Assembly: GCA_031257475.1 (NCBI GenBank)
Contig: JAIROP010000037.1
Span: forward strand, 1-40,744
Reading direction: 5' to 3'
DNA: 40,744 nt
Origin: Holosporaceae bacterium
GTDB taxonomy: Bacteria; Pseudomonadota; Alphaproteobacteria; UBA3830
How positions within the stretch are numbered: position 1 is the first letter of the stretch; each line of letters starts with the position of its first letter. A program made the position numbers and the translations under genes. The notes below the pieces were generated by a model that saw only the letters and a list, made by a program, of their open reading frames with translations, was not told where the DNA came from and did not search any database. Positions 5,024 through 39,817 of this stretch are shown piece after piece.

Positions 5024-5302
5024 ATGAACAGAGAAGACTGGGGCATTAAGAGGAGCTGTCTGTGTTGTGGAATTCGCTTTTATGACTTTTACAAATCTCC
5101 CATAGTATGTCCAGAATGCAACGGAGTGTTTGATCCGGACTATTTGCCAAAGAAAAAGGGAAAAAGTATCCAGGAGAAGCGTGACAACGTTGTAGATGAC
5201 ATAGATGTTGGTGTCGACGATGACGATATGATCGATGAAACTGCCAACGATCTAAATACCGAAGAGGACGGGATAGCTCTGGATGATGATGGGAAAAATT
5301 AG
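5024..5302 (+). CDS. FYDLN-acid family protein (TIGR02300)
   Basis: Small conserved alphaproteobacterial protein of unknown function. The N-terminal half has the family hallmarks: GIKRSCLCCG, the FYDFYK variant of the FYDLN motif, then IVCPECNGVFDP. The two CxxC pairs suggest a small zinc ribbon. The C-terminal half is a run of aspartates and glutamates (DDIDVGVDDDDM and onward), as in the rest of the family. The frame is open from 4925, but the extra 33 residues are not family-like; ATG 5024 has GAGGAG just upstream and begins MNREDWGIKR, so I prefer it (92 residues). The end overlaps the start of the DUF2155 gene by 20 bases. Confidence 0.85.
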   Translation: MNREDWGIKRSCLCCGIRFYDFYKSPIVCPECNGVFDPDYLPKKKGKSIQEKRDNVVDDIDVGVDDDDMIDETANDLNTEEDGIALDDDGKN

Positions 5303-5837
5303 TCGCAGTTTCTTGGCCATCATGAGACCGTTGCTTGACGGATCTTTTCCACAATCGACTTCGTCGGATGCGCTGCTCAGATCCTCATGTACAAGTAGTA
5401 CGCTGCGGTCCTGCGCTGTGCTCCTCCTTGTTCTTGCAGAAAACATCTCATCATGCAATGGTCTCATCATGTCCGTCGCGGTGGTTGCAAGCGGCGCAGA
5501 TGAGAGGGTGACCCAGGATGATGATCCTGTGGAGGAACCATCCATCTGGGAATCTGAGCCTATTGAAGTGGACAATGCGAACCTGCAGATTCTTGATAAG
5601 GTCAGCGGTAAGGTCTACAGGGAAAATCTGAAGCTAAATACTCCGAGAAGTTTTGGTTCCATCGAGCTAAGACTCAAAAGATGCTTCAGGAATTCTCCGG
5701 AAGATGAAAATGAGGTTTTTGCATTTGTTGAAATAACAGAAGGGAAGCGGGTAATTTTTGCCGACTGGCTTTTCGCTTCTTCGCCGTCTGTAAATCTATT
5801 CTCCCATCCCATATACGATATCAGAGTAGAGTTTTAG
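5283..5837 (+). CDS. DUF2155 secreted protein carrying an in-frame inserted repeat
   Basis: The C-terminal ~85 residues match DUF2155, an alphaproteobacterial exported protein family: LQILDKVSGKV, FGSIELRLKRC, then the signature FADWLFASSPS and HPIYDIRV ending. The N-terminus is unusual. Residues 15-63 are encoded by a 140-bp repeat plus its 7-bp target duplication (see separate entry). Without it the protein would begin MMMGKISRSFLAIM-SVAVVASGA-DE, a classical signal peptide with a basic n-region, hydrophobic core and A-S-G-A cleavage site. With it the frame stays open, and the insert supplies its own hydrophobic stretch (CAVLLLVLA). It is unclear whether export survives or whether translation begins at the downstream ATG at 5469. 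The stop is followed directly by dusB. The function of the family is not established. Confidence 0.85.
   Translation: MMMGKISRSFLAIMRPLLDGSFPQSTSSDALLRSSCTSSTLRSCAVLLLVLAENISSCNGLIMSVAVVASGADERVTQDDDPVEEPSIWESEPIEVDNANLQILDKVSGKVYRENLKLNTPRSFGSIELRLKRCFRNSPEDENEVFAFVEITEGKRVIFADWLFASSPSVNLFSHPIYDIRVEF
5325..5464 (+). repeat. Palindromic insertion element, copy 1 (inside DUF2155 gene)
   Basis: A 140-bp element is bounded by terminal inverted repeats: AGACCGTTGCTTGA at 5325-5338 and TCATGCAATGGTCT at 5451-5464, complementary except for two positions. It is flanked by a perfect 7-bp direct repeat CATCATG (5318-5324 and 5465-5471), the expected target-site duplication. Element plus one duplication is 147 bp, exactly 49 codons without a stop, so the host frame is preserved. 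A diverged second copy lies at 39617-39744 in the same orientation. It has no transposase and behaves like a MITE. It also resembles in size and habit the Rickettsia palindromic elements, which insert in frame into genes, though I cannot show sequence relatedness to those. Confidence 0.85.
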
Positions 5838-38437: not shown

Positions 38438-39604
38438 ATGGATAGAATAGTAATTGCAGCAGCAGCCAGGACTCCACTCGGAGCATTTAATGGAAAATTA
38501 AAGTCGGTTTCTGCTGTGGAGCTGGGGAAGACAGTCATAGCCAAAGTTGTCGAAGGCTACGCTGGAAAAATCGATGGCGTCTGCATTGGATGTGTGTTAT
38601 CTGCGGGTCTGGGGCAATCGGCGGCACGCCAGGCAGCGATTGGAAGCGGATTGGATGTGTCAGTGAACTGCGTGAACATCAACAAAATTTGCGGGTCCGG
38701 AATGGCCGCCATCATGTTTGCCAGGAATGAGATAATTTCCGGAGAAAAAAATGTGGTGATAGCTGGTGGAATGGAGAGCATGACCAATGCCCCCTATTTA
38801 CTGGAAAAAGCGCGCTCCGGATATAGATTCGGCGACGGGAAAATCCTGGACCACATTTTAAAAGACGGATTACTGGACGCCTATGAACAGCGGGTGATGG
38901 GTTCCTATGCAGAGGATACGGCAGCGGCCTATGCCTTTAGCAGAGCAGATCAGGACGAATACGCGCTCGGATCTTTTCTTCGGGCACGTAAAGCCATAGG
39001 GGAAAACCTGTTTAGGCAGGAAATTGTTCCTATAATATTAAAAGACAGAAAAGGAGACGTAGTGGTTAACAGCGATGAAATCCCTTTTTCTGTGGATCTG
39101 GATAAGATGCCTCGTTTGAAACCGGTTTACCAGGAAAATGGAACCATAACAGCAGCCTCGTCCAGTTCAATTTCAGATGGCGCTGCCGCCCTGTTGATTA
39201 TGACAGAAGCTATGGCTAACAAAATGGGAATGACTCCCCTGGCGCGCATCGTTGCTCAGAGTAGTTTTTCCCAGTCTCCGAAATTGTTCGCTACGGCCCC
39301 CATTGGAGCAATCGGGCAGGTTTTAGAAAAATCCGGATGGTCAGTTGGAGATGTGGATCTATTTGAAATCAACGAAGCCTTCTCCGTGGTAGCCATGGCC
39401 GCCATCCAAGAATTTGGTTTAGATCCAGAAATTGTTAACATATTCGGAGGGGCATGTGCACTGGGACATCCTCTTGGGGCAAGTGGTGCGCGCATCGTAG
39501 TTACTCTTTTGAACGCGATGAAGATGACAGGAGTTAGAAAGGGACTTGCCACTCTGTGTGTGGGAGGCGGAGAGGGCGTTGCCATGACCTTTGAGGCATT
39601 TTAG
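38438..39604 (+). CDS. Acetyl-CoA C-acetyltransferase (thiolase)
   Basis: Condenses two acetyl-CoA to acetoacetyl-CoA, or runs in reverse. The nucleophile is C85 in NKICGSGM, the His motif is GGACALGHPLGASGAR, and the second active-site cysteine lies in LCVGGGEG. NEAFSVV (NEAF motif) is present as well. At 388 residues it is full length. ATG 38438 has AAGGTG just upstream. No polyhydroxybutyrate or ketone-body gene is adjacent, so the pathway (PHB, fatty acid, or other) is open. The second copy of the palindromic element begins 12 bases after its stop. Confidence 0.94.
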   Translation: MDRIVIAAAARTPLGAFNGKLKSVSAVELGKTVIAKVVEGYAGKIDGVCIGCVLSAGLGQSAARQAAIGSGLDVSVNCVNINKICGSGMAAIMFARNEIISGEKNVVIAGGMESMTNAPYLLEKARSGYRFGDGKILDHILKDGLLDAYEQRVMGSYAEDTAAAYAFSRADQDEYALGSFLRARKAIGENLFRQEIVPIILKDRKGDVVVNSDEIPFSVDLDKMPRLKPVYQENGTITAASSSSISDGAAALLIMTEAMANKMGMTPLARIVAQSSFSQSPKLFATAPIGAIGQVLEKSGWSVGDVDLFEINEAFSVVAMAAIQEFGLDPEIVNIFGGACALGHPLGASGARIVVTLLNAMKMTGVRKGLATLCVGGGEGVAMTFEAF

Positions 39605-39616
39605 CCCTCTGAATCG

Positions 39617-39744
39617 AGACTGTTGCCTGATGGATCTTTTTCGCTATTGACTTCGTTAGATATACTCTTGGACCATCATGTACAGATAGTATTCTGCGGT
39701 TCTTTCCTGTTCTTGCAAAAAAAAATCTTATCAGGCAATATCCT
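39617..39744 (+). repeat. Palindromic insertion element, copy 2 (intergenic)
   Basis: About 128 bp homologous to the element at 5325-5464, in the same orientation. Ends are AGACTGTTGCCTGA (39617-39630) and TCAGGCAATATCCT (39731-39744), with eight perfectly paired inner bases. Shared blocks in the same order are GGATCTTTT, GACTTCGT, TCATGTACA, CTGCGGT and TGTTCTTGCA. It is shorter by about 12 bp, mostly one internal gap. No target duplication is visible, so it is probably older than copy 1. It lies between the thiolase stop and the cyclodipeptide synthase-like gene. Confidence 0.8.
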
Positions 39745-39817
39745 TTATAAATAATGCTAGGTAATTTTGCTATAACATGCTATCCTGAGTTGGTGTTGTG
39801 TGAATGAGGTTGAAGTA

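Follow-up and report, generated by a model that had tools for sequence, protein, structure and literature searches.

The question raised by this locus is what kind of palindrome lies in frame inside the signal peptide of a conserved protein, and how it came there. The window, by which we mean the whole stretch of 40,744 nucleotides that was analysed, is contig C5 of G000, a Holosporaceae MAG of 920,616 bases (0.92 Mb). Relatives of the same family include G019, G025, G014 and G008. The genomes analysed are mostly MAGs, and insertions were read from the assemblies. The reading which we favour, with a probability of about 0.92, is that the element is a non-autonomous palindromic MITE belonging to a family which we call family A: it is mobile, inserted in frame and a sister of the Rickettsia element RPE1. 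The features are collected in Table 1.

Table 1. Features of the window, with the in-frame insertions of family A found in G032
Feature	Position	Strand	Basis
DUF2155 gene, 184 aa	5283..5837	+	ORF; PF09923; alignment with 16 relatives
Family A palindromic element, 142 bp, GAGACC...GGTCTC, stop-free in the DUF2155 frame	5324..5465	+	Covariance model, 152 bits
Left target-site duplication, ATCAT	5319..5323	+	Sequence; 5-bp rule from 62 copies
Right target-site duplication, ATCAT	5466..5470	+	Sequence; 5-bp rule from 62 copies
Left terminal arm, 5' side of helix 1	5324..5342	+	Fold/covariation alignment
Right terminal arm, 3' side of helix 1	5448..5465	+	Fold/covariation alignment
Central core hairpin, common to family B, Rickettsia RPE1 and palindromes of other phyla	5371..5420	+	Core model R2, 70 bits
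Second family A copy, degraded, intergenic	39616..39745	+	Covariance model, 77 bits
In-frame insert in TldD (G032)	codon 110		Pfam-confirmed host
In-frame insert in MurE (G032)	codon 125		Pfam-confirmed host
In-frame insert in AspS (G032)	codon 331		Pfam-confirmed host
In-frame insert in CysS (G032)	codon 188		Pfam-confirmed host

The host gene has a FYDLN_acid gene on one side and a dihydrouridine synthase gene on the other. It overlaps the first of these, its start covering the FYDLN_acid 3' end (5283–5302), an arrangement by which the two genes may be translationally coupled. A Pfam search of the window protein places DUF2155 (PF09923) at residues 99–182 (E 3.3e-20), and the ORF is open through the whole element. 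The net insert in the protein is 49 codons, residues 15–63 (5325–5471): a counterpart of these residues is absent in all 16 aligned relatives, 10 of them from the same genus as the window. Once the insert is excised the N-terminus reads MMMGKISRSFLAIMSVAVVASGADERV, a normal signal sequence, similar in kind to the N-termini of the relatives. A preliminary description, made from the letters of the window alone, had proposed an element in frame within this signal peptide that adds exactly 49 codons, expected to be unique among orthologues, and whose removal rebuilds a classical signal peptide. All of this holds: the net length is 147 bp, the domain is intact and none of the aligned orthologues shares the added residues.

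Its limits had to be redrawn. The same description gave it 140 bp, with terminal inverted repeats of 14 bp and a 7-bp duplication, CATCATG. The inverted repeat stands; the length is 142 bp and the whole element folds on itself. The duplication is the 5-bp ATCAT, according to the statistics of 62 copies given below: the outer C and G of CATCATG are not duplicated in other copies, and the 7-bp version was rejected. Since 142 and 5 bp add up to 147 bp, the insertion does not shift the reading frame. The arms 5315–5338 and 5451–5474 are 83% complementary, and a segment of 170 nt folds with −62.6 kcal/mol (z −5.7), a value equalled by none of 200 shuffles. The element shows features of a MITE in its terminal inverted repeats, its length below 200 bp and its lack of a transposase gene, and the constant-length duplication of its family is another.

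A BLAST search of its own genome with the window element gives 36 matches, in two main types. A covariance model built on 15 copies gives 39 matches, some copies being counted on both strands; the E-values from such home-made models are rough. A second full copy of family A is found in C15:1945–2086, 85% identical to the window element, and there are several fragments. The second copy in the window, which the preliminary description had also reported, is real, though degraded and intergenic: it follows a thiolase-like gene ending at 39604 and has no clear duplication. Family A is abundant in sister genomes, with dozens of copies in G019, and it is present in G032 and G014; in a sample of 61 genomes none was found outside this same family of genomes. 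The further copies which that description expected therefore exist. G019 also has many solo ends of family A (L319–L338), perfect for at least 17 bp and then broken at varied points, which appear to be truncated or decayed copies.

We have analysed 62 family A copies with their flanks in four genomes (G000, G019, G014 and G032). The length is exactly 142 bp in 33 of them. A perfect 5-bp duplication is found at the borders of 29; re-paired flanks give a mean of 1.06 and a maximum of 7 in 200 trials, and no other repeat length stands out. Family A is mobile. Its hairpin is also maintained: in an alignment of 15 sequences two-sided changes are present at 20 of 44 pairs, the covariation score is reached by none of 500 shuffles, and pairing falls from 91.5% to about 40–50% when the partner is slid by 1–3 columns. 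An Rfam search with the element gives no family above threshold, and its peptides alone find no match in the PDB.

Family A is also found as a coding insert in other genes. Hosts were sought by computing the empty site and then looking for ORFs; the Pfam check was made only for the best six. In G032 the host is a housekeeping gene for 4 of the 11 copies analysed, and each of the four lengthens its gene by 147 bp with the frame still open. The solved chains of CysS and AspS are contiguous where the insert sits: in CysS (1li5) query residues 4–190 and 236–515 align, and chain residues 188 and 191 flank the insert; in AspS (4wj3) query residues 329 and 382 correspond to chain residues 396 and 400. 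Of the 33 copies with a length of 142 bp, 28 have no stop in frame −1 and 26 have none in frame +1, with 0.76 open frames of six expected from shuffles; common descent in the recent past may account for part of this openness. Family A as such inserts in frame, an RPE-like behaviour. Such insertions in conserved genes are rare among 51 analysed copies of G019, G014 and G000, so that a coding role is not general. We also considered, and rejected, that intergenic copies are under selection for frame: of the 29 copies with other lengths 10 keep a net multiple of three, as expected without selection, and the constant length of the family thus reflects its founder. Besides its family A insert, the MurE of G032 (L262) has a further insertion-like stretch, VVAPLAFSVSLPSEGCADCTSDVKAKVNACAAP, possibly another element.

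With the insert the DUF2155 protein has two hydrophobic stretches. One of them, CAVLLLVLA (residues 44–52, mean hydropathy 3.30), is brought by the insert, as had been claimed from the start. The other, LIMSVAVVA (residues 61–69, mean 2.84), is re-formed from the last residues of the insert and the displaced native half; native LAIMSVAVV also has 2.84. Judging from hydropathy, the two stretches probably keep the protein exportable. One could go further and suppose that the element is useful, being kept for remodelling the export or the anchoring of DUF2155 through a stretch more hydrophobic than the native one. We find this improbable: the inserts of the four G032 enzymes read the opposite frame, −1, which gives a soluble acidic peptide (RPLHNELFFARARKDAAQDRSVLDVHEDPSSGSDEANCEKEPLCKGL in TldD), whereas frame +1, used in the window, encodes CAVLLLVLA. 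The hydrophobic stretch is therefore a by-product of orientation and looks incidental. Furthermore, the insertion is common to no relative and so gives no sign of maintenance. We give as little credit to a DUF2155 pseudogene, or to a gene that starts downstream at ATG 5469 and has the element in its untranslated leader, in frame by chance. There is indeed an ATG at the right border of the element, a strong hairpin lies near the start codon, and frame neutrality is automatic for a length of 147, a multiple of three. However, a start at 5469 gives MSVAVVASGA, which has no basic n-region, while the upstream start yields MMMGKISRSFLAIM and, after excision, a signal peptide like those of the relatives. 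The intact domain and the presence of at least four other copies within conserved housekeeping proteins also argue against it.

Least probable of all is that the palindrome is an RNA-level feature, an sRNA or something comparable to sX9, and not transposed DNA. The strong covariation of the hairpin would fit it, and a palindrome of Xanthomonas cissicola bearing the same core is annotated as sX9 by Rfam (77 bits). But selection for a hairpin in the DNA, or correction of one arm by the other, also makes the arms covary, and the window element reaches 13.6 bits with sX9, which is annotated as an sRNA, far below its gathering score of 44. Target-site duplications and dispersed insertions in many copies show transposition of DNA.

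The history of the window element as a MITE is most probably the following. A transposase acting in trans, which we infer, would recognise the ends GAGAC(C/T)GTTGC and make a 5-bp staggered insertion. A net gain of 147 bp leaves the frame of the target unshifted, and one frame per strand is usually free of stops. Insertions into a tolerant part of a gene, with the right phase and orientation, then survive as inserts of 49 residues, as seen in DUF2155, TldD, MurE, AspS and CysS. In DUF2155 the signal peptide was hit after residue 14 and the plus-strand frame of the element used. Family A is a sister of RPE1: both have long hairpins and the same conserved core, with differing ends.

This relationship has become apparent through the second type of match. 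Many of the BLAST matches in G000 cover only approximately positions 54–100 of the query: they are family B. Its ends are AGACTTCTTTCGAAAC...GTTTCGAAAGAAGTCT, and 24 of 39 copies have 144 bp. In 30 of 39 the borders show a perfect duplication of 3 bp, AAT or ATT ('ANT') in most cases, compared with a shuffled mean of 14.6 and a maximum of 22; this expectation is high because the flanks are biased. The net insert is 144 + 3 = 147 bp, as in family A, and the two families have in common the core GATCCTCAYGTAC...GTACDCTGCGGTYYT and the strand read as coding frame. They differ in ends, length and duplication and in the match of family B to RPE1 (TIGR01045), up to 29.9–30.4 bits. Examples in G000 are C37:42072–42217, C21:1290–1435 and C41:272–417, RPE1-like copies outside Rickettsia. 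A further type, 'C', in which ends like GGGACTGTTTACAAACC enclose the core of families A and B, has been seen in L212 (G000:C21:62914–63056), L068 and L003. The model gives about 144 matches in G025 that belong to the family B type; the contigs of this genome (C1–C5 and others) often end inside a copy, so this repeat fragments the assembly.

The Rickettsia element in L379, translated on the host strand, reaches 59.2 bits with TIGR01045, where the cut-off is 30, and matches positions 1–46 of its 48. In the same frame, family B of G000 matches these positions with 29.9 bits; a six-frame search of G000 gives five places, one of which passes the cut-off together with its neighbours (30.4 bits). 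The peptides of family A, including those of the window element in both open frames, have no match with TIGR01045, nor with any RPE in NCBIfam. The profiles of families A and B find each other through AQDRSVL.VHED.S.G, which is encoded by the core, with 20–26 bits (the E-values are for tiny sets). Rickettsia copies have ends AGACTTCTTGCATAAT, AGACTTCTTTCGAAAC or similar and ANT duplications; two of them lie in open frame within genes, adding 147 bp. RPE1 is thus like family A in its size, full-length hairpin, stop-free frames and central hairpin core, and both are inserted in frame in housekeeping genes, with about 46–49 residues added. RPE1 differs by its ends (AGACYT instead of GAGACC), by a duplication of 3 bp instead of 5 bp and by its host, Rickettsia instead of Holosporaceae. 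The preliminary description had spoken of an analogous but possibly unrelated family: an RPE-like mobile palindrome in frame it is, but the core, in DNA and in peptide, is common to family B and to true Rickettsia RPE1. From TIGR01045 and the comparison of ends, family A appears to be a distinct family which shares the RPE1 core and is newly recognised in Holosporaceae.

A candidate mobiliser was sought among the PF01609 transposases of seven relatives. None is flanked by family A ends, and a search of G000 and G019 for an autonomous element combining such ends with a 5-bp duplication gave nothing. In G007, which belongs to the genus of the window, there is an IS of 984 bp (L400:1083–2066, G007:C85) with ends AGACCTGTTGCATAAG and an ATT duplication, as in RPE1-type elements. 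It encodes an IS5-type transposase of 274 aa (NF033581, 110.5 bits, below the equivalog cut-off of 140). In the RPE1-positive genome G375 there are 144-bp palindromes that end in AGACCTGTTGCAAAAG and are flanked by ATT duplications, and also a relative of the G007 transposase (61% identity) in a locus with ends AGACCGTTGCAAAAG and AGACCTGTTGCGAAAG and ATT on both sides. G032 has IS fragments ending in AGACCTGTTGCATAACC and palindromes with similar ends, for example AGACCTGTCGCACAACC. An IS of G069 is bounded by AGACCTCCTGTAAAAG and by duplicated AAT, but the ends are different at the RPE1-like place observed in this genome. Because ends and duplications match, RPE1-type elements are most probably MITEs of IS5-type elements. 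The ends of the G007 IS resemble those of family A (AGACCGTTGCATAA), which resemble these IS5-type and RPE1-type ends (AGACCGTTGC); the IS differs from family A by its length, its transposase and a duplication of 3 bp instead of 5 bp.

In the literature searched, RPEs are described as Rickettsia elements of 105–146 bp, nearly half of them in frame (PMC2229807, PMC10969869), and as present in all Rickettsia and Wolbachia examined (PMC3767692); Table 1 of PMC2229807 enters their target duplication as unknown. By definition (PMC2229807, PMC3767692), an RPE is a palindrome of 100–150 bp in frame in conserved genes, which is what we find in family A. ERIC, Correia/NEMIS, YPAL and the Coxiella QMITE are, by their descriptions, likewise short, palindromic and non-autonomous, sometimes fused to ORFs (PMC2229807, PMC5896051). 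Reports of insertion into the conserved domains of housekeeping proteins concern chiefly RPEs (PMC10969869). The passages searched, from work on R. japonica, the Coxiella QMITE and the Cardinium MITE and from reviews by Delihas, on MITEs and on Holosporales, contain no report of RPE-type elements in Holosporales or of a link of RPEs to an IS or IS5. Protein-coding palindromes, which had been presented as peculiar to Rickettsia and Wolbachia, are found here in another intracellular lineage and with a measurable duplication. With four clear insertions in essential enzymes and a candidate IS5-type transposase for the RPE1 type, which has matching ends and the ANT duplication, the movement of RPEs and their keeping of the frame become a testable question.

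The core has a wider distribution. A scan of 84,980 genomes gives at least 115 stretches with the core pattern; among the matches listed most are Holosporaceae MAGs, and the others include a Rickettsia endosymbiont of Bradysia coprophila, Xanthomonas cissicola and a 'Deltaproteobacteria', a gammaproteobacterial and a Cyanobacteria MAG. In distant genomes a long palindrome with different arms carries the core at its tip or close to it. With the core covariance model 20 of 384 other alphaproteobacterial genomes are positive, some of them with many copies, and 5–43 copies are found in five distant genomes. From sequence identity we infer that the core is homologous across phyla. The viral contigs of IMG/VR have no match to the core pattern, so that, as far as this pattern shows, nothing points to carriage by phages. 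There is perhaps an even chance that all these palindromes form a single superfamily, with a conserved GTAC core and exchangeable arms taken from different insertion sequences. It would be present in Holosporaceae, Rickettsiaceae and, by the core, in Gammaproteobacteria (including sX9), 'Deltaproteobacteria' and Cyanobacteria. An RPE1 branch would be moved by IS5-type transposases with ANT duplications, and family A would have captured ends with a 5-bp duplication and kept the 147 bp.

The 5' part of the Xanthomonas sRNA sX9 (RF02228 in Rfam) is the same GTAC core hairpin. According to a review, sX9 is one of the bacterial sRNAs that are annotated most often (PMC9029176), and our results suggest that this abundant family is part of the same kind of repeats. 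In X. cissicola (L141:1193–1270) sX9 is part of a long palindrome constructed around this core, and instead of an sRNA gene it may represent a repeat element.
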